Positions 5,514 to 56,182 of a DNA stretch of 64,000 nt are shown piece after piece. The stretch comes from a bacterium. Lineage in GTDB: Bacteria; JACRDZ01; JAQUKH01. Position 1 is the stretch's first letter. Each line of letters starts with the position of its first letter. The position numbers and the translations under genes were made by a program. Location of the stretch: contig JAQUKH010000010.1 in the NCBI GenBank assembly GCA_028719205.1, positions 1 to 64,000 on the forward strand, read 5' to 3'. The notes beneath the pieces were generated by a model. That model searched no databases, had not been told where the DNA came from, and saw only the letters and a list, made by a program, of their open reading frames with translations.

Positions 5514-6050
5514 ATGGATTTTAGGAAAATAATTGCAGGTAAACAGGTTAAAAGGGATTTTCCCGAATTTAGACAGGGAGATACGATAAAGGTTTATTTA
5601 AAAATTGTCGAGGGAGATAAAGAGAGAGTTCAGGCTTTTGAGGGTTTAGTAATTGCCCGTGATAACAGCGGGATACAGGCAGCTTTTACTGTCCGCAGAG
5701 TTTCATACGGTGTAGGCGTTGAAAGAAAATTCTTTATTTGCTCACCTTCTCTGGAAAAAATTGAATTAGTAAAAAAGGGAATGGTTAAAAGAGCCAAACT
5801 TTATTTTTTAAGAGGGAAATCCAGGAAAGAAGGAAGAATTAAAGAAAAACTGGAAGAAGAATTAATGGCCAAGGCAGTTATCCCTGAGATAAAGGCTGAA
5901 GTAATTCCGAGCGATAAAATAAGCGCGGATGTACCGGCAGAGGCAAAAACAGAAGTTAATAAAAAAGTAAAAAAAGATTCAAAAAAAGAGACAAAGAGAA
6001 TAGCAAAAAAAGAAAAGGCAGCAACAGAGAAAAAGGCAAAAAAGGCGTAG
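5514..6050 (+). CDS. rplS: Large ribosomal subunit protein bL19 with a long basic C-terminal extension
   Basis: Residues 1 to about 115 are a standard bL19 (FRQGDTIKVYLKIVEGDKERVQAFEGLVIAR...FTVRRVSYGVGVERKF...RAKLYFLRGKSRKE), which bridges the subunits near the 30S interface. The family normally ends there. This copy continues for about 60 residues rich in Lys, Ala and Glu, ending in alternating lysine-rich and alanine stretches. The tail is probably disordered and RNA- or ribosome-binding; no function is known to me. GGAGGAGAT lies just upstream of ATG 5514. Confidence 0.95.
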   Translation: MDFRKIIAGKQVKRDFPEFRQGDTIKVYLKIVEGDKERVQAFEGLVIARDNSGIQAAFTVRRVSYGVGVERKFFICSPSLEKIELVKKGMVKRAKLYFLRGKSRKEGRIKEKLEEELMAKAVIPEIKAEVIPSDKISADVPAEAKTEVNKKVKKDSKKETKRIAKKEKAATEKKAKKA

Positions 6051-6051
6051 A

Positions 6052-6104
6052 GGGGCTCCGGGTTCCGGGTAAAGATCCCGGATCCTTGACCCTTGAGCCG
6101 ATAA
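6052..6104 (+). repeat. Degenerate intergenic inverted repeat between rplS and rnhB
   Basis: GGGCTCCGGGTTCCGGG on the left and ATCCCGGATCC plus GACCCTTGAGCC on the right form an imperfect stem. The sequence is much more GC-rich than the neighbouring genes. It resembles the small palindromic repeats elsewhere in the window, but is too decayed to assign to one of them. Confidence 0.5.
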
Positions 6105-6117
6105 CGGGGGGTTGTTT

Positions 6118-6747
6118 GTGAAAAATAATCTCTTTTATGAAAAGTCTGTTTGGGTGCAAGGCAGTAATTTTATTGCAGGTATCGATGAGGTCGGGCGCGG
6201 GCCGTTGGCAGGCCCTGTTGTCGCGTGCGCTGTTATATTACCAAAGGAATTTTATTTGGAAGAGATTGATGATTCCAAAAAATTGTCTTCTCAAAAAAGG
6301 GAAGAATTGTACAATATTATAAAAAAAGAAGCCGTAAGCATTGGTTTGGGGCTGATCCGGGAAGATGTGATAGACCGGATCAATATCAGGCAGGCAACTT
6401 TTTTGGCAATGAAAAAAGCTATAACCCGCCTTAAAATACCACCTGATTATCTTTTAGTTGATGGAGAAAAAATACCGCAAATTGATATTCCTCAGATCCC
6501 CATATTTAAAGGGGACTCTCTCTCTTTTACTATATCATCCGCTTCAATAGTAGCTAAGGTAACCCGGGACAGGCTGATGGATAAATATCATAAATTCTGG
6601 CCGGAATATAATTTTTGCAGCCACAAGGGCTATGGGACAGAGGAACATCTTTTGTGCTTGGAAAAATATGGGGTTTGTCCGATACATAGGAGAAGTTTTA
6701 AACCGGTTACGAAGGCTCTAAGCGTAAGAGGATTATATGGAAGCTAG
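6118..6747 (+). CDS. rnhB: Ribonuclease HII
   Basis: The 209-residue enzyme cuts RNA in RNA-DNA hybrids and removes single ribonucleotides from DNA. IAGIDEVGRGPLAGPVVACAV carries the first catalytic Asp and Glu; later acidic residues lie in DYLLVDGEK and in the DRLMDK region; SSASIVAKVTRD is the family block. GTG 6118 sits 6 bases after a run of six G; TTG 6112 in the same frame is an alternative. It overlaps yraN by 11 bp, a common rplS-rnhB-yraN arrangement. Confidence 0.96.
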   Translation: MKNNLFYEKSVWVQGSNFIAGIDEVGRGPLAGPVVACAVILPKEFYLEEIDDSKKLSSQKREELYNIIKKEAVSIGLGLIREDVIDRINIRQATFLAMKKAITRLKIPPDYLLVDGEKIPQIDIPQIPIFKGDSLSFTISSASIVAKVTRDRLMDKYHKFWPEYNFCSHKGYGTEEHLLCLEKYGVCPIHRRSFKPVTKALSVRGLYGS

Positions 6748-7102
6748 ACAAAAAGGCGATTATGGCGAAGAAGAGGCATGTAATTTATTAGTCCGTGAGG
6801 GATATAAAATTCTTGAAAGAAATTTTCATTTTAAACATCAGGAAATTGATATAATAGCGTTAGATAAGGGAACACTGGTATTTATTGAAGTTCGCGGCAG
6901 GAAAGAAGGCTTGTGTTCACCTGAAGAATCTATAGGGTGGTGGAAAAAGAAAAATATAATACGGGTCGCGCAATTTTATTTAAAGAAAATGAATCTTAAT
7001 GATTTTACATGCAGGTTTGATGTTGTATCGATTTTATATAAAAATGATACAGTTGATATTAAAAAAATTGAGTTGATCAGAGATGCATTTCAGGTTGATT
7101 AA
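6737..7102 (+). CDS. yraN: YraN family endonuclease-like protein (UPF0102)
   Basis: The 121-residue protein has a small restriction-endonuclease-like fold. The motif EIDIIALDKGTLVFIEVRGRKE contains the D-x(n)-ExK-like core, with EVR where most members have EVK. G.YGEEEA near the N-terminus is typical. The cellular role is not established; the family has been linked to DNA uptake or repair. It overlaps rnhB and sits immediately before the pilus/secretion genes. Confidence 0.92.
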   Translation: MEARQKGDYGEEEACNLLVREGYKILERNFHFKHQEIDIIALDKGTLVFIEVRGRKEGLCSPEESIGWWKKKNIIRVAQFYLKKMNLNDFTCRFDVVSILYKNDTVDIKKIELIRDAFQVD

Positions 7103-7117
7103 GGAAAGGAGTTAAAT

Positions 7118-7585
7118 ATGGCGCAAACTCAGGAGGGTACTAAAGCTCAAGCTGTTCTTCCGAGAATCAGTAAAGCACAGGTAACAGGCCCGGAACGATA
7201 CCGGCTTTTTCAGACAATCACGGTAATCTTTACTGTTTTTGGCTCTACTGCGGGAACAGTTTATTTATCTGAACTAAAAGCGGGAATTATTGGAGGTTTA
7301 ACAGGTTTATTTATCAGTTTTATTTTAATAAAGTTGTTGATGGGGGATAATAAAAATATTTTCAGAAGAAATTTTGCTGAAAGGACGCTGGACTCGGCGA
7401 TAAGTATGCTTGGCGCGGGTATTTTTTCCGGAGTAATGGGCGGGTTGTTTGGATATTATCTGGAAGGAGATTTTAATCTCGCGTTATCTATAGCTTTAAC
7501 TTGTGTTATAGCGGGTGTTGTAAGCACCAGTCTGGCAGGATTGGCAGTAATGTTCTGGGAAGTAATAACAAAGAAAAAGGTATAA
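7118..7585 (+). CDS. Membrane protein of unknown function with four transmembrane segments
   Basis: I do not recognise a family. The 155 residues begin with a polar tail of about 28 residues, followed by four hydrophobic stretches at about 30-50, 53-77, 92-116 and 122-147. The second to fourth are Gly/Ala-rich (AGIIGGLTGLF, GAGIFSGVMGGLFGYYL), suggesting tight helix packing. ATG 7118 has a good AAGGAG ribosome binding site. It lies 4 bp before the pilus ATPase gene, so it may belong to the same envelope machine, but no direct evidence exists. Confidence 0.7.
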   Translation: MAQTQEGTKAQAVLPRISKAQVTGPERYRLFQTITVIFTVFGSTAGTVYLSELKAGIIGGLTGLFISFILIKLLMGDNKNIFRRNFAERTLDSAISMLGAGIFSGVMGGLFGYYLEGDFNLALSIALTCVIAGVVSTSLAGLAVMFWEVITKKKV

Positions 7586-7589
7586 TATT

Positions 7590-9479
7590 ATGGAAAATAA
7601 AGATTCTCGCTGGATCAAACATTTATTGGATATTAAAGCGATTTCAAATGAAGGTCTTGATATGGCTTTAAAAGAGCAGGAAAAAACAGGCAAGAAATTA
7701 GATGAAATATTAGTTTTGAATAATCTCATTGATAAGAAAAAACTGGCAAAATCTATTTTCGGGATATATTCAGGAAGGAAGATTGAAGAAATATTAGTTG
7801 AGGACGGAATAATTTCTTCGAAACAGTTGAATGAAGCTTTAATAAAACAAAAAAATAGTAAAAAGCGTTTAACGGAAATTTTATTGGAAGAAAATTTAGT
7901 CAATGATGAACAGTTGGCAAAGGTATTAGCTAAACAACAAGGGTTAGAATACACCTCTTTAGAAAATTTTGCGGTTGATAAAGGACTAGCCAGAGAAATT
8001 ACATTGGATAAAATGCGTGATTATTCATTCGTTCCATATAAAAAGGAAGACAAAGTTTTAACTATTGCGGTTTCTGACCCGACTAATCTCATATTGTTCG
8101 ATGAATTAAAAATACTGCTGGGTATGCAGTTAACGTTCATGGTAAGTACAGAAAGGGCAATTAAAAAGGTTTTAGAGAATTTTGGCAGTAAATCCAATGT
8201 GTTACAGGAGATGGCTGAAAATCTGGGAATGCAGATCATAAAAGAAGACGGCGAAGAAGAAAAAGATAATCGGGAAAAAATAGAAAATATTCCTGAGGAT
8301 CTTGAAGATAAAAATAATCCGGTAATCATGATGGTTGATTCCATTATTAACAATGCCATAAAAAAAAGAGCAAGCGATATTCATATTGAATCGAAGGAAG
8401 AAAATGTAGGCGTTAAATATAGGATTGACGGAGTACTTTATCCGGCGATGGAAAAAGTGGCTAAAAAATTTCATGATGTAATTGTTTCCAGAATAAAGAT
8501 AATGGCTGAGTTGAATATCGCGGAAAAGCGCGTACCCCAGGATGGACGTTTTAAAATCAGATTTGAAGGGCGAAATATTGATTTCCGGGTTTCAGTTATA
8601 CCAAGTAATTTTGGAGAAAATGTCGTTATACGTATATTAGATAAAATAGCTTTAAACCTGGATTTGACAAGTTTAGGATTTGATCCGGAGGAATTGGAAA
8701 GATTTAAAAAAGAAATAATAAAGCCTTATGGGATGATCCTGGTTACCGGGCCTACGGGGAGCGGGAAGACTACGACTCTTTACGCGGCAATATCCGCGAT
8801 ATATTCCCCGGAGGAAAAGATAATTACTATTGAAGATCCTATTGAATACCAGTTATCAGGAATAACACAAGTTCCTGTCAATGAAAAAAAAGGGCTTACC
8901 TTCGCGAGAGGCCTGCGTTCTATTCTCAGGCATGATCCGGATAAAATAATGGTTGGAGAGATCCGGGATTCTGAAACCGCCCAGATCGCGGTGCAATCAG
9001 CATTAACCGGGCATTTGGTATTCAGTACGATACACGCGAATAATGTAGTTGATGTTATTACCCGTTTGATCAACATGGGGATTGAACCGTATAATTTTGT
9101 TTCCGCCCTGAATTGTATGATCGCTCAGCGATTGGTTAGGAGTATTTGCGTCCATTGCAAGGTTCCTGTTAAAATATCAGGAAAGGAACTGGTGGATTCC
9201 GGGATTGATCCGGCCAAGGCGGCCGATAAAAATTTTTGTAAAGGGAAAGGCTGTGAATATTGTAATTATACAGGGTATTTTGGAAGAAAGGCTATTTTTG
9301 AATTGATACATCTTTCTGATACTGTCAAGGAAATGATCCTGGAAAAGAAGCCGTTTTCAGAGATAAAACTCAAAGCAAAAGAAGAAGGTATGATATTTTT
9401 GCGGGAAGCCGGATTGAAGAAAGTTTTTGCAGGGGAAACTACGCTTAAAGAGGTTAACAGGGTTACGTTTGTGGAGTAG
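7590..9479 (+). CDS. pilB: Type IV pilus/type II secretion assembly ATPase (PilB/GspE family)
   Basis: This 629-residue hexameric ATPase powers pilin or pseudopilin assembly from the cytoplasm. The N-terminal 150 residues hold three MshEN/GspE-N-like stretches (KKLDEILVLNNLI, RKIEEILVEDGII, KRLTEILLEENLV). Walker A GPTGSGKT is at 387-394, followed by an Asp box (IEDPIEY), Walker B (IMVGEIRDSETA) and a His box (STIHANN). A zinc-type tetracysteine module (CVHC at about 520, CEYC about 30 residues later) marks the extension-ATPase class. No retraction ATPase PilT or platform protein PilC/GspF is in the window. Confidence 0.95.
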   Translation: MENKDSRWIKHLLDIKAISNEGLDMALKEQEKTGKKLDEILVLNNLIDKKKLAKSIFGIYSGRKIEEILVEDGIISSKQLNEALIKQKNSKKRLTEILLEENLVNDEQLAKVLAKQQGLEYTSLENFAVDKGLAREITLDKMRDYSFVPYKKEDKVLTIAVSDPTNLILFDELKILLGMQLTFMVSTERAIKKVLENFGSKSNVLQEMAENLGMQIIKEDGEEEKDNREKIENIPEDLEDKNNPVIMMVDSIINNAIKKRASDIHIESKEENVGVKYRIDGVLYPAMEKVAKKFHDVIVSRIKIMAELNIAEKRVPQDGRFKIRFEGRNIDFRVSVIPSNFGENVVIRILDKIALNLDLTSLGFDPEELERFKKEIIKPYGMILVTGPTGSGKTTTLYAAISAIYSPEEKIITIEDPIEYQLSGITQVPVNEKKGLTFARGLRSILRHDPDKIMVGEIRDSETAQIAVQSALTGHLVFSTIHANNVVDVITRLINMGIEPYNFVSALNCMIAQRLVRSICVHCKVPVKISGKELVDSGIDPAKAADKNFCKGKGCEYCNYTGYFGRKAIFELIHLSDTVKEMILEKKPFSEIKLKAKEEGMIFLREAGLKKVFAGETTLKEVNRVTFVE

Positions 9480-9495
9480 AGGATAGGAGAAATAT

Positions 9496-10569
9496 ATGTT
9501 TTACTTGACCTCAAAAGATGTCTCAGCCGGGCTTGATATCGGCAGTCATAGCATTAAATTAATTAAGTTAAAGCGGGGAAAAAAGGTAAAAATTTTAAAC
9601 GCTGAGAAGGTCCTGCTGCCTCAGGATCTAATCCGGGGAAGTTTTATTAATGAAAACATCCGGGATCAAAAAGTTTTTACCGGAAAGATAAAAGAATTAT
9701 TTTCCATCGCCGGGTTAAGTGATAAAGAAGTGGCAGTAGGTATCCCTGATACTTCCGCGCGAAGTATTTTTTTGGAACTGGAAAATGTGCCTGAGAATAA
9801 AGAAGACGCGAAAGAACTTATAAAATGGAAACTGAAAAAAGATATAGATTCAAATTTAGACAAAAATTTCGCGATTGATTATCATATTTTAAAAAAAGAT
9901 ACAAAGGATAAAAAAGATCTTTACAGGCTTTTCGTAGTATTGAGTAATAAAAAAATTTTGGCGGAGTATGAAGATTCATTAAGGAATATCGGATTAAAAC
10001 CTGTCTCATTGACTTTGAGTTCTTTTGGATTGATCAATTTTATTAATTTTATTGAAAAAAGAAGCGATAACTCCCTCATAATCAACCTGGGGCATCAGGT
10101 AACGACTTTATTTATTATAAAGGACCAAAAACTTGCTTTTATGCGTTCAATTGATATCGGGGGAAGAGATTTTACTTCAGAGGTCAAAGAGCATTTTTCG
10201 TTAAACTGGGAAGACGCGGAAAAGAAAAAACGGGAGAATATCTTTTTCCCTGAAAGTATTGAGATCCCTGAATTAATGAATATGAGCGTATTGGATAATT
10301 TCAGTTCAATTAAATTAACTCAGGGTAATCTTATAAGAGAGATATCTTTATCTTTGCGCCATTATGAAGATAAAACAGGAGAGTCCGCGATCAAAAAAAT
10401 TTTATTATCCGGCGGGACCGCGGATTTCAGGAATATCAATATATTTATCAAAAATATTTTTAATTTGGATACTTTTAAGATCGATCAATTAGAAAAAATA
10501 GATCTGCTGCAAAATATCGGAGCGGAGAATTTATCAACTTATGCTTCAGTAATTGGATTGTTGTTATGA
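9496..10569 (+). CDS. pilM: Pilus assembly protein PilM
   Basis: This 357-residue, actin-like cytoplasmic protein links the assembly ATPase to the inner-membrane PilN/PilO complex. AGLDIGSHSIKLIKL is the first nucleotide-binding loop, GIPDTSARSIFLELE the PilM signature region, SLIINLGHQVTTLFII and RSIDIGGRDFT the second phosphate loop, and KILLSGGTADFRN the adenosine loop. It overlaps pilN by 4 bp. The gene order pilB-M-N-O-secretin is that of a type IV pilus or a pilus-like secretion system. Confidence 0.93.
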   Translation: MFYLTSKDVSAGLDIGSHSIKLIKLKRGKKVKILNAEKVLLPQDLIRGSFINENIRDQKVFTGKIKELFSIAGLSDKEVAVGIPDTSARSIFLELENVPENKEDAKELIKWKLKKDIDSNLDKNFAIDYHILKKDTKDKKDLYRLFVVLSNKKILAEYEDSLRNIGLKPVSLTLSSFGLINFINFIEKRSDNSLIINLGHQVTTLFIIKDQKLAFMRSIDIGGRDFTSEVKEHFSLNWEDAEKKKRENIFFPESIEIPELMNMSVLDNFSSIKLTQGNLIREISLSLRHYEDKTGESAIKKILLSGGTADFRNINIFIKNIFNLDTFKIDQLEKIDLLQNIGAENLSTYASVIGLLL

Positions 10570-11117
10570 AAATAGAAATAAATTTATCCCAGCATAAATA
10601 TGAAAAAAGATCAGTTATTATTCTCTTTTACTCTGTAATTATTGCTTTAATATTAAGTGCTGTATTTTATAACTATAAATTAATATATTATTATAATGAT
10701 CAGCTTGCCGGTTTAAATGAAAAAAACGCCGATTTGAATAAAAAATTAGAAACAGGAAGGCAAATAGTTAATGAAAAAGGGTTGTCAGAAAAGGATTCAA
10801 GCGCTTTATTGAAAAAGATAGATTATGTTAATCTGGTGATAGAAAAGCAGGCTTTTTCATGGACAGGGCTTATTTATCATCTTGAAGAGCATACTCCTGA
10901 TGAGATTAGTATTACTGAAATAACGCCGTCTTTTGCTGAAAATAACATTAAGATCATCGGTTTGGCTAAAACAGTCGATGATATAGTAAAGTTTGTTAAT
11001 AATCTTCAATTATCGAGTTATTTTAAGGAAGTGTTTTTATTAGAGCATAGTGAAGTGGAAATCGAAAAAAATCAATTGATAAAATTTGTTATTACTTCCA
11101 AATATATAAAGGAATGA
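10566..11117 (+). CDS. pilN: Pilus assembly protein PilN
   Basis: The 183-residue bitopic protein starts with the PilM-binding segment KIEINLSQHKYEKR, a form of the conserved INLLP motif. A transmembrane helix (about 17-38) and a coiled coil (about 42-75) follow, then a periplasmic ferredoxin-like domain with the usual VDDIVKFVNNLQLSSYFKEV pattern. It should pair with PilO to form the alignment complex. Four-base overlaps with both neighbours indicate strong coupling. Confidence 0.9.
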   Translation: MKIEINLSQHKYEKRSVIILFYSVIIALILSAVFYNYKLIYYYNDQLAGLNEKNADLNKKLETGRQIVNEKGLSEKDSSALLKKIDYVNLVIEKQAFSWTGLIYHLEEHTPDEISITEITPSFAENNIKIIGLAKTVDDIVKFVNNLQLSSYFKEVFLLEHSEVEIEKNQLIKFVITSKYIKE

Positions 11118-11653
11118 GCAGCTATATGAAACAGCCGTTGAAAATTTTATTAATAAGCTTTGTTGTTATTGTATTTGCTAATATAACGGTATTCTGGTTT
11201 GTGATCCGGCCGGAAAAAATAGCGATAAAGCAAAAGGAGGCAGATTATTTCGTGTTAAGAGAAAATCTGCTTGAGGTCAGGCAAAGGATAAAAAATGAAA
11301 AATATATTAAGGAAAGTATCAGTAATATTAAAAGCGACCTTGATAAATTTGATTTAATATTGCCCCGTCATGAAGAAATTACACGGCTAATTCAGGAATT
11401 GCCCAATATAGCTGAAAAAACCGGAGTAAAAGTGAGCGGTGTGAAATATCAACCGTTTGTAAAGGATGAAGGTTATAACCGTCTTTCTTTTTCCCTGCCT
11501 GTGGAGGGGAAATATTCCAATATCAGAAAATTTATCTATGAATTAGAGACGATGAGAAAAATAATATGGATCGAACGCTTAGCTATCCGGACATCATATT
11601 CCGTGCGTGAAGAGCTGACAATACAATTGACAATGTCTACTTATTTTTTATAA
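11114..11653 (+). CDS. pilO: Pilus assembly protein PilO
   Basis: The 179-residue protein has one transmembrane helix (about 9-30), a coiled coil (about 35-75) and a periplasmic ferredoxin-like domain with LPRHEEITRLIQELPNIAEKTGVKVSGVKY followed by FSLPVEGKYSNIRKFIYELE, the PilO/GspM-like pattern. It is the expected partner of PilN and contact for the secretin. The next gene begins 36 bp downstream with its own ribosome binding site. Confidence 0.88.
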   Translation: MSSYMKQPLKILLISFVVIVFANITVFWFVIRPEKIAIKQKEADYFVLRENLLEVRQRIKNEKYIKESISNIKSDLDKFDLILPRHEEITRLIQELPNIAEKTGVKVSGVKYQPFVKDEGYNRLSFSLPVEGKYSNIRKFIYELETMRKIIWIERLAIRTSYSVREELTIQLTMSTYFL

Positions 11654-11689
11654 CGGTGGAGTTTTTACAATTAATTTGAGGAGGATTAG

Positions 11690-13651
11690 ATGAAAAAGGT
11701 AATAATCCTGTTTTTACTTTTGTTTTTTTACTGTTTTCAAATCGGGGAATATGGTGAAACCAGTAATGTAAAAGAGAATGAGGTTCCGGCGGAAGTTCCT
11801 AAATCCGATAAGAGCGAACCTGCGGATAAAAGTACATCATTAAAAAAACAGGATCCGGCGATACAGCCTATAACTCTTAAGTTTAAAAACGCGTATTTAA
11901 AAGATATTTTTGAGATCTTATCCAAGATGACCGGTGTGAATATATTTTTTGATGAGACAGTTCAGAACAAAAAAATAAATGTTTATATCGATTCACTGCC
12001 TTTTGAACAGGCATTGGATATTTTATTGAAGACAAATGACCTGACAAAAATAACTGTGGATAAAAATTCCATGGTGGTAGTACCAAAAAAGGGAGACAGG
12101 ATAAAAAATTATCAGGATATGGTCATTAAAACCTTTTATTTAACAAATGCCGAGGCAAAAGATATCATTAATTTGCTTAGGACCATGATCCAGACAAAAC
12201 AGATAATCATAAATGAGAGGCTTAATGCTATTGTCCTTCGTGATACAAAAGAGAATATTGATATGGCGCAGCAGATCATTGAGGCCAATGATAAACTCGG
12301 CACGCAGGTTGATATTGAACTGGAACTTTTGGAGATAAACCGTAACAGGCTTGAAAATCTTGGAATGCAGCTTGGCGGAGGCGAGGGCGATAAAAAAGCG
12401 CTTTTATCAGGTTTGAGCGAGATTAAGTTTGAAGGCAGTGTGAAAAATAAATTGAATCTTTCGCTGCCGAGTGTCTGGTATAACCTGGTTAATGATAAGA
12501 GTTTCGCGAAGATATTGGCTAATCCGAGGATCAGGGTGACCAATAAACAAAAGGCGAAGATCATGATTGCGGATCGTATCCCTGTTGAGATTTCCTCGTC
12601 TACCAAGGACAGCTTAGGCAATGAAACAATTAATACTCAGGTCCAATATAAAGACGTTGGAATTAAACTTGATGTTGAGCCTAATATCCATTTTGATAAC
12701 CAGGTGGAGGTAAAGCTAAGCCTGGAGGTTAGTTCAATTGTAGAATATAACTCAAAGGGATATCCATTGATCCGGACAAGAAATGTTGAAAGTTCTATCA
12801 GATTGAAAGATGGTGAATCTAAGATTTTAGGCGGATTAATAAGTGATGAGGAGAGAAAAGGCGCATCCAAAGTTCCGATGCTGAATAAGATCCCGTTTCT
12901 TGGGACATTATTTACTTCCAGCCGCGATCAAAAAATTGAGACAGAAATTGTTATGAGGGTAACCCCTTATATAGTTGATAAAACCGTTTTAGCTCAGGAT
13001 ACAGCATCAGCTTCCCCTGGGATAACAGTTTCTTCCTCTGCTGCAGGAAAGACAGATTTGATACAGGAAGTTCCTCCTTTACCTAAAGAGGAACCGGTAA
13101 AGAATGAACCGGTGGAAGCGGCTTTTACAAAAATGCAAAGGCTGGTTGAAGAAAAATCAGTAAGCGATGAAGAAAAGAAAGAAAAACCAAAGGATGACCT
13201 GTCGAATCAGCCGGACGCGGCGTCGAATATGATCTATATTAATCCTCAGTTTAAAGATGTTATTGTGAATGAGGAGTTTTCCTTAGAGGTGTCTGTAAAT
13301 AATATTTCAGATCTTTTTGCCGTGCCTTTTTATCTTATTTATGATCCTAAACTTCTGCAATTTATATCGGCGAAAGAAGGGCCTTTTTTAGGACAGGATG
13401 GAAATTCAACTACCTTTCTATTTTCTAATGATATTAACCGCGGCAGGGTAATAGTCGGCCTTACCCGTCTGGGACAGGTAAAGGGAGTGAATGGTTCGGG
13501 AACGATCATGATCATAAATTTTAAGGCGCTTGCTGCTGGCAATGCTTCTATTGGTTTTGATAATGCCTCGGCAAAGCGGGTTACTTCTGAAAATCCGATG
13601 CCGCAGTCGTTTCCAGTGACTTTCAGGGGCGCGCAGGTAAATGTAAAATAA
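11690..13651 (+). CDS. pilQ: Outer-membrane secretin (PilQ/GspD family) with a C-terminal cohesin domain
   Basis: This 653-residue protein has an N-terminal signal sequence (about 1-22), a charged linker, N0/N1-type domains (about 60-200: ITLKFKNAYLKDIFEILSKMTGVN; TFYLTNAEAKDIINLLRTMI) and the secretin core (about 205-435: ELELLEINRNRLENLGMQL; IRLKDGESKILGGLI; KIPFLGTLFTS). A Pro/Glu/Lys linker follows. The last 140 residues form a cohesin-type beta sandwich (NEEFSLEVSVNNISDLFAVPFYLIYDPKLLQF...GSGTIMIINFKALAAG). The cohesin half is repeated in the next gene. GAGGAGG precedes ATG 11690. Gene name by context; GspD is an equally fair label. Confidence 0.92.
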   Translation: MKKVIILFLLLFFYCFQIGEYGETSNVKENEVPAEVPKSDKSEPADKSTSLKKQDPAIQPITLKFKNAYLKDIFEILSKMTGVNIFFDETVQNKKINVYIDSLPFEQALDILLKTNDLTKITVDKNSMVVVPKKGDRIKNYQDMVIKTFYLTNAEAKDIINLLRTMIQTKQIIINERLNAIVLRDTKENIDMAQQIIEANDKLGTQVDIELELLEINRNRLENLGMQLGGGEGDKKALLSGLSEIKFEGSVKNKLNLSLPSVWYNLVNDKSFAKILANPRIRVTNKQKAKIMIADRIPVEISSSTKDSLGNETINTQVQYKDVGIKLDVEPNIHFDNQVEVKLSLEVSSIVEYNSKGYPLIRTRNVESSIRLKDGESKILGGLISDEERKGASKVPMLNKIPFLGTLFTSSRDQKIETEIVMRVTPYIVDKTVLAQDTASASPGITVSSSAAGKTDLIQEVPPLPKEEPVKNEPVEAAFTKMQRLVEEKSVSDEEKKEKPKDDLSNQPDAASNMIYINPQFKDVIVNEEFSLEVSVNNISDLFAVPFYLIYDPKLLQFISAKEGPFLGQDGNSTTFLFSNDINRGRVIVGLTRLGQVKGVNGSGTIMIINFKALAAGNASIGFDNASAKRVTSENPMPQSFPVTFRGAQVNVK

Positions 13652-32270: not shown

Positions 32271-33263
32271 ATGAAAGAAGCCTTATTTTATGAAAAACTG
32301 GATAATGAAAAAGTTAAGTGCCTGCTTTGTCCGAAACACTGCGTAATTGCTCCCGGTAAATCAGGATTCTGCAGGTCCAGGGAAAATACCGGCGGAATAC
32401 TTTACGCGGTTAATTACGGTCAAACCGCGTCACATCCCTGCCTTGACCCGATAGAAAAAAAACCACTGTACCATTTTTATCCGGGGTCTTTGATACTTTC
32501 TCTTGGGGCTAACAGTTGTAATCTTGCCTGCGAAAATTGCCAGAACTGGACCATCTCCCAGATCGATGTAAAAACGATTCCGGTTTCTCCAAAAGAATTG
32601 GTTGCCCTGGCGAAGGAAAATAATTCACTTGGTTTAGCCTATACATACACCGAACCTTTTACATGGTATGAATTTATTCTGGAGACCGCGCAGTTGATAA
32701 AGGAGGCGGGGCTTAAAAATGTTATCGTGACCAATGGATATGTGGAAGAGGAACCGTTAAAAAAACTTCTTCCTTTTATTGATGCTTTAAATATTGATAT
32801 TAAATCAATGGATGAAAATTTTTATAAAAATATATGCCATGCTAAACTTGGGCCGGTTTTAAAGGCAACTGAATTAGCTAATAAAACCTCTCATGTAGAG
32901 TTAACCAATCTCGTGATCCCTACGTTAAACGACAAAAAAGAGGATTTTGAAAAACTGGTAAATTGGATCTCTGAAAAATTAGGGCCTGATACCCCACTCC
33001 ATTTCTCAAGGTATTTTCCGAATTATAAAATGAAGATTCCTCCAACGGATATTTCAAGTTTGGAATTAGCGAGAAAAATAGCCAGGGAGAAACTGAATTA
33101 TGTCTATATAGGGAATATCGCGGATGTTTCGGCTAATACTACTTATTGCCCGAATTGTAATAATGAACTTATCCGGAGGATAGGGTATACAATTAGAAAA
33201 ATCGGATTAAAAGAAGGGAAATGCGTAAAATGCGAAAACAAAATTGCCGGAATTGGATTATAA
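32271..33263 (+). CDS. AmmeMemoRadiSam-type radical SAM protein
   Basis: This 330-residue protein resembles pyruvate-formate-lyase activases. The N-terminal zinc-like CLLCPKHCVIAPGKSGFCRSREN precedes the radical SAM cluster CNLACENC (Cys 83, 87, 90), then SLGLAYTYTEP, TNGYVEEEPL and the SRYFPNYKM block. The C-terminus adds a zinc ribbon (CPNCNNEL...CVKCENKIAGIGL). Family members usually occur with AMMECR1- and MEMO-domain proteins; neither is visible here. Possible roles are RNA or protein modification, unproven. GGAGG lies before ATG 32271. Confidence 0.9.
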   Translation: MKEALFYEKLDNEKVKCLLCPKHCVIAPGKSGFCRSRENTGGILYAVNYGQTASHPCLDPIEKKPLYHFYPGSLILSLGANSCNLACENCQNWTISQIDVKTIPVSPKELVALAKENNSLGLAYTYTEPFTWYEFILETAQLIKEAGLKNVIVTNGYVEEEPLKKLLPFIDALNIDIKSMDENFYKNICHAKLGPVLKATELANKTSHVELTNLVIPTLNDKKEDFEKLVNWISEKLGPDTPLHFSRYFPNYKMKIPPTDISSLELARKIAREKLNYVYIGNIADVSANTTYCPNCNNELIRRIGYTIRKIGLKEGKCVKCENKIAGIGL

Positions 33264-34225
33264 CATTCATTATTTTTTTTGTGTTATTGAATGTTTCATG
33301 TGGTAAATACAAAAAAACCGAAGAAACTAAGTTTATAATGGGCACTATAGTTAATGTTAAGATCTATCAGACAGATGAAGGTAAAGCCAAAACGGTGATA
33401 AAAAAAGCGTTTGATGAAATGGAGCGGGTGGACCGGGTTTTCAGTAATTTCAAAGAAGATAGTTTTATCTCAAAGATAAACAGGAACAGCGGAACATGGG
33501 TTGAGGTACCGGAAGAGGTTGTCGAATTGATAGAGCGATCTTTGAAATATTCCGCCTTAACTGACGGCGCGTTTGATATTTCTATCGCTCCGATAGTAGA
33601 TCTCTGGGGATTCGGTCCGGCTAAGAAACATTATATTCCGACAGAAAAAGAAATTTCCGATACGCTTCCATTAGTTAATTATAAAAATATAGAGATCGAT
33701 AAAGAGAAGAACAGGATCAAAATAAAAACCGGAATGCGGTTAGAGCCCGGAGGCATAGCCAAGATTTACGCGTTAGAACGAGCGGTGAAGGTTATTAAAG
33801 AATCCGGTATAAAAACCGCGCTTGTCAATGCGGGCGGGGATATTTACGCCCTGGGAGAAAAACAAAAAGGTGAGCCTTTTAAAATCGGTATCCAGCATCC
33901 GAGGAACGATGAAGAGATATTAGTAAATCTTAAAGTTTCGGATGCCGCGATTATTACCTCAGGGGATTATGAAAATTATTTTATTGAAAATGATAAAAGG
34001 TATCATCATATCTTTGATCCAAAAACAGGGCATTCAGGCAACCTGTGCCAGAGTGTCACGATAGTTTCTAAAGATATGTCTATTCCCTCAACCGGGATTT
34101 TTGTCCTTGGGCCTGAAAAGGGAATAAAATTGGTAGAATCTATTCCGGGAGCAGAATGTTTGATAGTAGATAGTTCCGGGAAAATTTTCAAATCAAAGGG
34201 ATTTGATAAATATATAGCAAAATAA
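33221..34225 (+). CDS. apbE: FAD:protein FMN transferase, lipoprotein (ApbE)
   Basis: The 334-residue protein has a lipoprotein signal (IITFIIFFVLLNVSCGK, Cys at about 27). The ApbE core shows FIMGTIVNVKIY, DGAFDISIAPIVDLWGFG, EPGGIAKIYALERA, ALVNAGGDIYALG and HHIFDPKTGHSG. It attaches FMN to Thr in proteins such as Rnf or Nqr subunits on the outer face of the membrane, which may tie it to the RnfB-like fusion at 54794. It overlaps the radical SAM gene by 43 bp; ATG 33230 is an alternative start. Its stop abuts the tgt stop. Confidence 0.93.
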   Translation: MRKMRKQNCRNWIITFIIFFVLLNVSCGKYKKTEETKFIMGTIVNVKIYQTDEGKAKTVIKKAFDEMERVDRVFSNFKEDSFISKINRNSGTWVEVPEEVVELIERSLKYSALTDGAFDISIAPIVDLWGFGPAKKHYIPTEKEISDTLPLVNYKNIEIDKEKNRIKIKTGMRLEPGGIAKIYALERAVKVIKESGIKTALVNAGGDIYALGEKQKGEPFKIGIQHPRNDEEILVNLKVSDAAIITSGDYENYFIENDKRYHHIFDPKTGHSGNLCQSVTIVSKDMSIPSTGIFVLGPEKGIKLVESIPGAECLIVDSSGKIFKSKGFDKYIAK

Positions 34226-51894: not shown

Positions 51895-53025
51895 ATGGCA
51901 TTAGAATTCAGTAATGAATTTGAAAAATCCGCGTCTATTAAAGTAGTTGGAGTCGGCGGCGGCGGCGGTAACGCCGTAAACAGGATGATCGACGCTAAAA
52001 TGCAGGGGGTTGAATTTATAGCAGTTAATACTGACCTTCAGGATCTGCGCGCCTCTCAGGCAAATATTAAAATTCATATCGGTGAAAAAGTGACACGTGG
52101 ATTGGGAGCGGGATCCAGCCCGGAGCTTGGAGAAAAAGCGGCAATAGAGGATAAATCAAAAATAGCCGAGGCTTTAGAAGGCGCGGATATGGTTTTTATT
52201 ACCGCGGGTATGGGTGGCGGGACAGGTACCGGGGCGGCTCCGGTTATTGCCCAGATGGCTAAAGAAATGGGAATTTTGACGGTAGCCGTTGTTACAAAAC
52301 CGTTTATTTTTGAAGGAAGAAAGAGAGTAATGCACGCGGACGAAGGATTGAAAAAATTAACTCAACATGTAGATACCGTTATTACCATTCCTAACCAGAG
52401 GCTTTTATCGGTTGTCGGTAAAAATATTCCGATCATTGACGCTTTTAAGGTTGCTGACGACGTGTTACGGAGCGCGGTGCAGGGTATATCGGATCTTATA
52501 ACTGTTCCCGGCTTGATAAATCTGGATTTTTCAGATGTCAGGACGATCATGTCAGGCATGGGAGACGCGCTGATGGGTACAGGCTCGGCGTCAGGCGAGG
52601 GCCGCGCGATAAAAGCAGCCCAGCAGGCTATTACTAATCCTCTGCTTGAAGACACGACTATAAACGGCGCTAAAGGCATTTTAATTAACGTGACAGGCGG
52701 GCCGGAAATGACATTGCATGAAGTCAGTGAGGCCGCCAATCTAATATACGAAGCCGCGGATGAATCCGCGCATATTATTTTCGGAGCGGTGATAAATGAA
52801 GATTGCGGTGATGACGTGAGAGTCACAGTTATCGCGACCGGGTTTGAAAGGCCAAGCCGGAGCAAAGACCTGGATAAAAACGAATTCAGTTTTGACCGCA
52901 CAAAAAATCCGGCAAATAAAAATTTTGAAAAACGCGAAGGATTCAAATTAGAACAGTTTCTTTCAAATAATATGGAAGATAATTTAGATATCCCGGCATT
53001 TTTGAGAAATCAAAAATCCATGTAA
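51895..53025 (+). CDS. ftsZ: Cell division GTPase FtsZ
   Basis: The 376-residue tubulin homologue has [18 protein letters not shown], the tubulin signature [21 protein letters not shown]-like [22 protein letters not shown] and a short linker ending in the conserved peptide DIPAFLRNQ, which binds FtsA. AAGGAGG lies 6-7 bases before ATG 51895. It closes the dcw cluster; a terminator follows. Confidence 0.98.
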
Positions 53026-53055
53026 TAACAGAAAAACAAAATTCAAAATAAATTT

Positions 53056-53092
53056 AACCCTGGCTTCTATAATTCAGAAGCCGGGGTTTTTT
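53056..53092 (+). terminator. Rho-independent terminator of the dcw cluster
   Basis: AACCCTGGCTTCT pairs with AGAAGCCGGGGTT (one G-T pair) around a 7-base loop, followed by six T. Confidence 0.9.
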
Positions 53093-53125
53093 GTTGCATT
53101 TATTCCCCATAATGACCCAAATCTC

Positions 53126-53134
53126 TGATATAAT
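53126..53134 (+). promoter_or_regulatory. Extended -10 element before the radical SAM gene
   Basis: TGATATAAT ends 11 bases before ATG 53146. No Shine-Dalgarno sequence is present, so the transcript should be nearly leaderless. Confidence 0.6.
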
Positions 53135-53145
53135 TTTATAATCAT

Positions 53146-54744
53146 ATGATCAGCAACAAAGAATTACTAAAAAGCGAAAAAGGCCCTAAATACAACCCGT
53201 TTGGGAAAAATATCAGGACGGCTTTGGTATATCCTAATTTTTATTCGATCGGGATGTCCAACCTTGGGTTCCAGACCATATACCACCTTTTAAATTCCTA
53301 TACTAACACTTATTGCGAAAGAATATTTTTGTCTAATGAAGAAAAAATATATTCTTTTGAGAACAATCAATCTTTAAATAGTTTTAATTTTATATTTTTT
53401 TCGCTGTCTTTTGAAGGGGATTATCCTAATATTGTGAAGATATTGGATAAAGGGAATATTCCTGTTTTCGCGTGCGACCGGGATGAGACGCATCCGGTAA
53501 TAGCTGGCGGAGGTGTATGCGCTTTTTTGAATCCTGAGCCAGTCGCGGATTTTTTTGATTATTTTGTGATAGGCGAGGCGGAGGAAGTTTTAAGCAGGCT
53601 TATCGATATTTATGATAAAAATTATTCCGGCGGGTTTAAAACAAAGAAAGAACGTGAATCGTATTTAATTGAGATCTCAAAAATTGAAGGGGTTTATGTC
53701 CCGCAGTTTTATAACTTTGTTTATAACAATAAAAATGAGATAACATCGGTAGAAGTACAAAAAGGCGCGCCGTCCAAAATAAAAAGGCTTTATATCAAGG
53801 ACCTGGACAGCTTGCCGATCCTGCCGCAGATAACCAGCCCGCATCTGGAATTCGGTGATATGTTCCTTTTAGAGGTCGGGAGGGGATGTCCCTTTCAGTG
53901 TAATTTCTGCGGGGCGACTTCTGTTTATAAGCCGTACCGTTTTAGAAGTTTGGAGACAATAAAAAAGATCGTCAGAGGCCAGAAAGGGATAAAAACATTC
54001 GGTTTAATAAGCCCGGCTGTATCATGTTATCCAAAAATGGAGGAGCTCTTCGAGCTTTTCTATTCGGAAAAAGCCAAAACGTCCTTTTCTTCGTTGAGAA
54101 TAGATAAAATTGATGATAAATTGGCCCTTCTGCTGTCTGAAAATAATCAGAGCACTATAACCCTGGCCCCTGAATGCGGCTCACAGCGCATGAGAAATAT
54201 GGTTAATAAAAAAATAGAAGAAGAAGATATTCTTATGGCCATTGAAAACCTGGCTAAGCATAAAATAAAGAATATTAAACTGTATTTTATGATAGGGCTT
54301 CCTGAGGAAAAACCGGAGGATATTGAGGCCATTTATGCCTTGACACAAAAAATCAGGGATGTTACAATAACTGTTTATAAAAAGACGAAATATCTAACTA
54401 AAATAACGATCCATATTACTCCTTACGTTCCAAAGCCTCATACCCCGTGGCAGGATATAAGTATGAGCGATGAGGAGGATTTAAGATCAAAATTGCATTT
54501 TTTACATAAATCTGTTTCAGAACTTGGATCGATCAAACTGGAAGCGGAAGATGTGAAAAACGCGATTTTGCAGTCAGTATATTCCAGAGGGGACAGGAAA
54601 TTAGCCGAATTTATTATTGCGTTATCCCGTTCGGAAAATAAGAACTGGAAAATAGCAGGCAAAAAATCAGGTTTTGCCTGGCAAAGATATTTATCAACGG
54701 AGCACTATGGTAAAATTTTGCCATGGGAACTCATAAGTGAATAG
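53146..54744 (+). CDS. B12-binding-type radical SAM protein
   Basis: The 532-residue protein has an N-terminal cobalamin-binding-like Rossmann region (about 25-160: RTALVYPNFYSIGMSNLGFQTIYHLLN; FFSLSFEGDYPNIVKIL; AGGGVCAFLNPEPVADFFDYFVIGEAEE) and a radical SAM core with CPFQCNFC (Cys 248, 252, 255), TLAPECGSQRMRNMVNK and LYFMIGLPEEKPEDIEAI. It matches the TIGR03960-like class, whose substrates are unknown. The last codons and the spacer (54737-54758) contain the direct repeat GTGAATAG, so the C-terminal end may have been reshaped. Confidence 0.85.
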   Translation: MISNKELLKSEKGPKYNPFGKNIRTALVYPNFYSIGMSNLGFQTIYHLLNSYTNTYCERIFLSNEEKIYSFENNQSLNSFNFIFFSLSFEGDYPNIVKILDKGNIPVFACDRDETHPVIAGGGVCAFLNPEPVADFFDYFVIGEAEEVLSRLIDIYDKNYSGGFKTKKERESYLIEISKIEGVYVPQFYNFVYNNKNEITSVEVQKGAPSKIKRLYIKDLDSLPILPQITSPHLEFGDMFLLEVGRGCPFQCNFCGATSVYKPYRFRSLETIKKIVRGQKGIKTFGLISPAVSCYPKMEELFELFYSEKAKTSFSSLRIDKIDDKLALLLSENNQSTITLAPECGSQRMRNMVNKKIEEEDILMAIENLAKHKIKNIKLYFMIGLPEEKPEDIEAIYALTQKIRDVTITVYKKTKYLTKITIHITPYVPKPHTPWQDISMSDEEDLRSKLHFLHKSVSELGSIKLEAEDVKNAILQSVYSRGDRKLAEFIIALSRSENKNWKIAGKKSGFAWQRYLSTEHYGKILPWELISE

Positions 54745-54758
54745 TTGACAGTGAATAG
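54737..54758 (+). repeat. GTGAATAG direct repeat overlapping a stop codon
   Basis: GTGAATAG at 54737-54744 supplies the final Glu codon and TAG stop of the radical SAM gene, and recurs at 54751-54758. It may be a fragment of a GTGAATAGT-type intergenic array. Confidence 0.45.
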
Positions 54759-54793
54759 CCGATATTAAAATTTAAAGGTTTAAATACTAAACT

Positions 54794-56182
54794 ATGGCTC
54801 AGATATTCAAAAGACGAATTGAGAATAGAAATCAGCATATGATCTTTTTTACCAGTATGGTTATCCTTTTCATTACTGGTTATTTTAAGAGCGTTCCTAA
54901 ATCATGGCTGCATTATCTTGGAAATACTACTTTGTTCTGGTCGCAGTTCAGCGCGATTTTGCACAGGTTAGCCGCGATAGCCTTCATAGTTTCCTCCCTT
55001 TACCATTTGAAGTTTTTGTTTATGAGTTCAGATGGGCGGTCTAATTTTAAAAATCTTATTTTTACCAAACAGGATATAGTTGATTTTTTTATACATGTTT
55101 TTTCCTCGCTTGGCCTTACTAAGAAAAAACTTATCAGAAAACGTTATTATTATAATGAAAAATGTGACTACTGGATCATGTTCCAGGGAACAATAATTTT
55201 TATTATTACCGGGACGATCCTCTGGCTGGAGGAATATTTCGGGAAATTTGCCATAGATATTTCTTATATACTTCATAATAAGGAGGCACTATGGGGAGTT
55301 TATGCTATTGTAGTCTGGCACTTTTTCAATCTTCATCCGGAATTTTATCTTTACGCGCGCGAGGACGCGCAGCCCTGCGGGCGTGATGAATGTGTATTTT
55401 GCGGCATTTGTGACTTATTGACCCAGGATAAAGACAGCCTTAATGTATTCCTCAGCGGCGATCAAAAGGTAGACGGCCTGACAAAAACATATACCCTTAA
55501 TTTATGTATCGGCGATATGCTGACAAGGGCTAATAAGCTTAGGGAAAAGGGTATTACGTCCTGCAAGGAGGGTGTAGCAGTTTTAGCCGCTGATACAACG
55601 GTTTGTCAGTATGGCTGTATCGGCCTCGGTGATTGTGTGTTAGCCTGCAGGACGCATGCCAGGTATTTTGACGACAAAGGAAGAGGGATGGTAGACAATT
55701 CAAAATGTACCGGGTGCGAAGAGTGCATAAAGATTTGCCCGCGGAATCTTATTATCATGTATCCTAAGGAAAAACGTGTTCATATTCCTTGTAATTCGCT
55801 GGATAAAGGCACAAAGGTCAGAGAAGTATGCGCTGTCGGGTGTTTAGGCTGCGGGATATGCGTCAAGTTCTGTCCTGTTCAGGCTATTACACTCTCAAAT
55901 AATCTGGCAAAAATTGATTATTCAAAATGTATTGAATGCGGTATTTGCGCGGTTAAATGCCCTCACAAAACTATTGTGGATACCACGGGCCCGAGGGCAA
56001 AAGTTAATATTCTGACAAAAGATTGTACGGGGTGTTCCGAGTGCGTGAAAGTTTGTCCTGTTAAGGCCATCCAGCCGGATACCGCGAACGCGGGTAAATT
56101 TATAGTGCTGGAAGATAAATGTATCGGATGCAAGGTTTGTATCGATAAATGTCCCACCAAATGTATTAAAATTAAATCATAG
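54794..56182 (+). CDS. Fusion of a cytochrome b membrane domain with an RnfB-like polyferredoxin
   Basis: The 462-residue protein has two parts. Residues 1-185 form a four-helix cytochrome b unit like formate-dehydrogenase gamma, with likely haem ligands among H15, H57, H71, H176 and H181. Residues 195-462 carry about seven iron-sulfur cluster motifs: CGRDECVFCGIC at 195-206, an RnfB-style block C257...C271QYGCIGLGDCVLAC285, then four-Cys sets at 305-315, 346-360, 379-389, 411-421 and 443-453. It should pass electrons between ferredoxin and the quinone pool or a periplasmic partner. No other Rnf gene is adjacent. No ribosome binding site is clear. Confidence 0.85.
   Translation: MAQIFKRRIENRNQHMIFFTSMVILFITGYFKSVPKSWLHYLGNTTLFWSQFSAILHRLAAIAFIVSSLYHLKFLFMSSDGRSNFKNLIFTKQDIVDFFIHVFSSLGLTKKKLIRKRYYYNEKCDYWIMFQGTIIFIITGTILWLEEYFGKFAIDISYILHNKEALWGVYAIVVWHFFNLHPEFYLYAREDAQPCGRDECVFCGICDLLTQDKDSLNVFLSGDQKVDGLTKTYTLNLCIGDMLTRANKLREKGITSCKEGVAVLAADTTVCQYGCIGLGDCVLACRTHARYFDDKGRGMVDNSKCTGCEECIKICPRNLIIMYPKEKRVHIPCNSLDKGTKVREVCAVGCLGCGICVKFCPVQAITLSNNLAKIDYSKCIECGICAVKCPHKTIVDTTGPRAKVNILTKDCTGCSECVKVCPVKAIQPDTANAGKFIVLEDKCIGCKVCIDKCPTKCIKIKS

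Follow-up and report, generated by a model that had tools for sequence, protein, structure and literature searches.

The gene at positions 54794-56182 (+ strand) of the 64,000-nucleotide stretch of bacterial DNA analysed here (hereafter the window; contig JAQUKH010000010.1, assembly GCA_028719205.1) raises the question of what a cell would do with a cytochrome b-like membrane domain and an RnfB-like polyferredoxin in a single polypeptide. The original prediction described a four-helix, His-rich membrane domain joined to an RnfB-style polyferredoxin of about seven clusters, and proposed that the protein could carry electrons between ferredoxin and quinone through haem b, in either direction. 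Here, we ask whether the gene is genuine, to which known systems its halves are related, and which electron route its properties favor.

A genuine fusion gene

The open reading frame begins with an ATG and encodes 462 amino acids. Our analysis confirmed that its product joins a cytochrome b with four helices, of the FdnI/CbcL type, to an RnfB-type polyferredoxin. Residues 232-396 match RnfB profiles (9e-43), and the best matches of the fusion in the PDB are RnfB of A. woodii and RnfB of C. tetanomorphum. For the membrane half, the Pfam profile Ni_hydr_CYTB gave 22.7-25.5 bits with the window protein alone, which is under the curated cut-off of 30.1; the same profile matched 18 of the 18 aligned relatives of this domain (best E 1.2e-18). 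A single-sequence structure prediction of the fusion was of too low confidence to be used (pLDDT 36.6).

Homologous fusions were found on separate contigs of two further genomes, with 86% and 37% identity, respectively. This occurrence on independent contigs of three genomes rules out a chimeric assembly. Between the window genome (G000) and its congener (G001), pS is 0.66 and pN 0.08, with similar values in both domains and in the linker; purifying selection on the gene is strong. The reading frame, this selection and the conservation of the cysteines described below all support that 54794-56182 is one gene, for a putative dihaem cytochrome b with an RnfB-type polyferredoxin. As had been anticipated, no named family with this build was found in Pfam, NCBIfam, the PDB or the literature searched, nor had the architecture been assigned there to a subunit of a known complex. 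The same literature yielded no RnfB-cytochrome b fusion and no ferredoxin:quinone oxidoreductase of this type.

The membrane half resembles FdnI

The cytochrome b domain comprises residues 1-190 (54794..55363, +). Hydropathy places TM1 at residues 16-34, TM2 at 59-77 and TM3 at 127-145, while TM4 (residues ~161-181) was placed by aligning the domain with FdnI and related cytochromes b. Lys and Arg residues number four in the N-terminal tail, ten in the TM2-TM3 loop and one in each outer loop. By the positive-inside rule, both termini of the domain and, thus, the polyferredoxin should be cytoplasmic, so that the junction between the two halves of the protein is predicted to lie on that side of the membrane.

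In a search of the PDB with a profile of the cytochrome b family, the best solved relative was FdnI, the gamma subunit of formate dehydrogenase-N (1kqf_C; 1.2e-10). A lack of conservation of the haem-ligand histidines had been named beforehand as one of two refuting observations, the other being a prior assignment of the architecture; in fact, His15, His57, His71 and His161 are invariant in all 38 aligned relatives. The haem ligands of FdnI are His18, His57, His155 and His169. His15 in TM1 (54836..54838, +) aligns with FdnI His18 and His57 with FdnI His57, while His71, an additional invariant histidine on TM2, has no counterpart in FdnI (His57 to His71, 54962..55006, +). In the TM4 segment (55274..55336, +), His161 aligns with FdnI His155 and His176, which is conserved in 37 of 38 sequences, lies at most one residue from FdnI His169; His181 is present in 25 of 38. 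From these alignments, the periplasmic haem should be ligated by His57 and His161, and the cytoplasmic haem by His15 and His176. The one exception at position 176 is an Asn in G002, the genome with the 37% identical fusion, and His71 or His181 may substitute there. With its four TM helices and conserved candidate haem-ligand histidines, the membrane half belongs by its sequence to the cytochromes b of the FdnI type. This family is dihaem and quinone-reactive, and the domain would accordingly hold two haem b and may react with quinone. FdnI itself differs from the fusion in that it is a separate subunit and receives its electrons from the periplasmic side.

The polyferredoxin half and the genome's own Rnf complex

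Leaving aside Cys124 and Cys457, the fusion contains 32 Cys residues, all of which are conserved in the three fusions. These would suffice for eight [4Fe-4S] clusters rather than the approximately seven originally estimated. Of the 32, 28 are in the RnfB core (residues 231-460; 55484..56173, +), which aligns end to end with residues 99-327 of A. woodii RnfB (E 3.7e-39), i.e. with the part that holds clusters B1-B7 (numbering as in PMC11889175). The remaining four form a CX4CX2CX2C motif (Cys195, Cys200, Cys203 and Cys206; 55376..55411, +), a candidate [4Fe-4S] site near the predicted cytoplasmic haem. In the A. woodii Rnf complex, ferredoxin docks near B1-B2, and B8, carried by a mobile domain that is anchored through the TM helix of RnfB, hands the electron to RnfAE (PMC11889175); a similar picture has been described in PMC9588780. 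Both A. woodii RnfB (PDB 9eri) and the fusion could thus hold eight clusters in total. However, RnfB has one TM helix and the mobile FdI/B8 domain, whereas the fusion has the four-helix haem b domain and the CX4CX2CX2C motif, and a Pfam search of the fusion gave no match to FdI (PF04060). In other words, comparison of the sequences suggests that the TM helix and FdI/B8 of RnfB have been replaced by the cytochrome b and the CX4CX2CX2C motif.

RnfB functions with RnfACDEG, whereas the fusion lacks adjacent partners: as the original prediction stated, no rnf genes adjoin it, and none was found in the rest of the window. A search of the genome for rnf genes showed that it encodes the whole RnfCDGEAB set in an operon of its own, apart from the fusion. 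Contig C52 carries RnfC-D-G-E-A and contig C50 carries RnfB; the two contigs overlap by 246 bases with 98.8% identity. The RnfB of this operon has six clusters and the FdI domain. The fusion is, therefore, an addition to the genome's RnfB. The operon also accounts for the ApbE that had been pointed out in connection with the fusion: ApbE is indeed encoded in the window (33221-34225; PF02424, 285 bits) and fits the separate Rnf rather than the fusion. In G001, a second operon of the Rnf/Nqr type (contig C93, locus L159, 3099-11271) has an RnfC-D-G-E-A-like core. In place of RnfB or NqrF, the genes after this core encode a [2Fe-2S]-NuoE fusion, NuoF and a NuoG-like N-terminus, an arrangement in which an NADH input module of the complex-I type is attached to an Rnf/Nqr core.

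Could the fusion be an alternative RnfB that docks on RnfC or RnfAE of the genome's Rnf complex? The homology of its core to RnfB and its TIGR01944 score of 77.2 bits, above the NCBI cut-off of 68.7, speak for this idea, and because of that score automatic pipelines would name the gene RnfB. By contrast, the fusion lacks the TM helix of RnfB and the FdI domain that delivers electrons to RnfAE, an ordinary RnfB is already present in the rnf operon, and in the polyferredoxin tree the fusions fall outside the phylum's own RnfB (support 80/85; the G002 sequence is long-branched). We consider such docking very improbable. Judged by its sequence, the protein is not an RnfB: it has the polyferredoxin core and lacks two defining features, the TM helix with FdI and the linkage to RnfACDEG. 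The same tree, with its modest support (80/85), does not favor the idea that the fusion polyferredoxin arose recently as a duplicate of RnfB within the phylum, and we are unsure of its exact position given the long branches.

The gene is located at the end of the dcw cluster

In three genomes from two families, the fusion is downstream of ftsZ (51895..53025, + in the window), where the dcw cluster ends. In the window, a gene for a TIGR03960-type B12-binding radical SAM protein (53146..54744, +) separates the two; in G001, the interval contains this gene and two short ORFs, and in G002 it is only 14 bp. The three occurrences of this electron-transfer gene after ftsZ span 51895-56182 of the window, 6037-8528 of locus L142 and 6413-11946 of locus L141. 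The position of the fusion in the dcw cluster supplies no operon partner that points to its substrate. The radical SAM gene was considered as a functional partner and rejected because it is located elsewhere in G002 and in G003, the fourth genome of the phylum.

The dcw position could mean that the fusion serves quinone-linked redox maintenance or sensing in envelope biogenesis or cell division, as its conservation in two families and the 14 bp spacing in G002 would suggest. However, the dcw cluster of G003 is intact and without the fusion, arguing that the fusion is not essential to division, and a frozen accident may explain its place there. No wall-synthesis step is known to require such a protein, and we regard a role of this kind as improbable.

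The radical SAM gene also bears on the direction of electron flow. Redox wires are reversible, and menaquinol or a periplasmic donor might reduce the polyferredoxin and so supply low-potential electrons to cytoplasmic enzymes; a radical SAM protein, which needs a low-potential reductant, is encoded immediately upstream in G000 and G001. As mentioned, this gene is unlinked to the fusion in G002 and G003. Moreover, the potential of menaquinone is about -74 mV. With ferredoxin at about -450 mV (PMC9588780), menaquinol would be ~375 mV too positive as a donor, and with the Fe-S clusters on the inner side the proton-motive force should be unable to drive this step, whichever side quinol is oxidized on. 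The reverse direction included in the original prediction is, therefore, unlikely on energetic grounds, and we give it little weight.

Distribution and relatives of the fusion

The fusion is present in three of four genomes of the phylum (G000, G001 and G002). In G003, which is 78% complete, it was not found, and the intact dcw cluster is without it at the corresponding site. We looked for this architecture in 386 genomes drawn from across the bacterial domain, a small fraction of known diversity, and saw no further fusion; all other matches were RnfB or cytochrome b alone. Surveys of two further small phyla were likewise negative, as was a second sample of relatives (largely the same genomes), and a search for related loci in a collection of genome contigs gave unrelated ferredoxins and no fusion.

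In the cytochrome b tree, the fusions form one clade (support 100/100). The cytochromes b most closely related to them are linked to multihaem cytochromes c, by fusion or as neighbouring genes. Cytochromes b of this kind go by the name of CbcL or Cbc-type, and the same set of histidines is conserved in the aligned relatives of this kind. The naming also follows PMC9012536. Known Cbc-type forms carry periplasmic multihaem c, whereas the fusion has a cytoplasmic polyferredoxin and a cytochrome b in a clade of its own. Several unrelated genomes (loci L161, L164, L165 and L167) contain repeated blocks of an 11-haem c, a 4-TM cytochrome b, an 8-haem c and a 4-TM cytochrome b. We also observed proteins whose NHL propellers are joined to paired-CXXCH multihaem domains or lie next to them (locus L009, 1419-3083, and locus L010), one of them with 1387 amino acids and many CXXCH motifs.

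The main rival to a quinone-linked function follows from these relatives. The cytoplasmic wire and the two haems could form a transmembrane outlet through which ferredoxin electrons would pass to periplasmic multihaem cytochromes without quinone. The links of the nearest cytochromes b to periplasmic haems make an outward route conceivable, and the genome is rich in multihaem proteins (e.g. on contigs C21, C50 and C52). However, unlike Cbc multihaem complexes, the fusion and its neighbours are without CxxCH motifs, and cytochrome c genes are absent next to it in all three genomes. We consider this outlet unlikely, while ranking it first among the alternatives.

Discussion

Based on these data, we suggest that the fusion is a single-polypeptide ferredoxin:menaquinone oxidoreductase, to which we assign a probability of roughly one in two. 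The conserved Cys and His residues, the alignment of the RnfB core, the FdnI-type cytochrome b, the predicted junction of both halves on the cytoplasmic side, the separate Rnf and a futalosine menaquinone cluster on contig C3 (MqnE, MqnC, a decarboxylase, a prenyltransferase and PF02621) argue for it; the Asn in place of His176 in G002, the linkage of the closest cytochrome b kin to periplasmic haems and a dcw setting in which no operon partner points to a substrate argue against it. Thus, of the originally proposed one-gene link between ferredoxin, haem b and quinone, the forward reaction is plausible given the menaquinone pathway.

In this model, reduced ferredoxin would dock on the cytoplasmic RnfB-like domain, from where electrons would pass through seven [4Fe-4S] clusters equivalent to B1-B7 of A. 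woodii and then through the eighth, at Cys195/200/203/206 just under the membrane, to the cytoplasmic-side haem b. The next carrier would be the haem b on the periplasmic side (His57/His161), from which menaquinone would be reduced. The haem b module would take the place of the mobile domain of RnfB, which in Rnf feeds the Na+-pumping RnfAE core; as a consequence, electrons would skip Rnf and enter the quinone pool without ion pumping. We infer that the fusion probably conserves no energy, the drop from ferredoxin to menaquinone being lost as heat, and if quinone were reduced on the outer side, some proton-motive force would also be dissipated. A comparable dissipation has been described for HdrDE running outward in ANME archaea (PMC9012536). 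Alongside the energy-conserving Rnf, the fusion might then be a valve that relieves the cell of surplus reduced ferredoxin while it is able to respire.

The pairing of a cytochrome b with cytoplasmic Fe-S proteins is in itself known from HdrDE, QmoC and Rnf. HdrDE and QmoC couple a cytoplasmic Fe-S module to a dihaem cytochrome b and to a carrier that is soluble in the membrane, and in QmoC the cytochrome b is fused to an HdrC-like Fe-S domain. Their cytochromes b belong to a different, NarI-like family and their Fe-S proteins are of the HdrD/HdrC type, whereas those of the fusion are of the RnfB type, its best and longest matches being to RnfB rather than Hdr profiles. By this comparison, the fusion is neither QmoC nor HdrDE and would act like a minimal ferredoxin:quinone oxidoreductase in their style. 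In ANME archaea, a b-type cytochrome likewise links Rnf to a membrane carrier; however, it is encoded by a separate gene in the rnf cluster and is unfused to RnfB (PMC9012536). Where electrons are known to pass from ferredoxin to quinone-like carriers, they do so through large complexes, i.e. methanogen Rnf with a cytochrome, FpoF-less Fpo and Hdr (PMC9012536). What appears to be new here is the RnfB-type fusion in one gene.

We tentatively propose that these proteins represent an as yet unnamed family of one-gene ferredoxin:menaquinone oxidoreductases in which the membrane-delivery part of RnfB has been exchanged for a dihaem cytochrome b. The family would be limited to a single small candidate phylum, and its gene would be retained where the cell-division cluster ends. 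For annotation, the family is a warning in view of the RnfB name that such genes would receive. If the proposal is true, the fusion would be a clear instance of the swapping of bioenergetic modules, and a minimal system in which to study how electrons of very low potential are fed into haem b and quinone.
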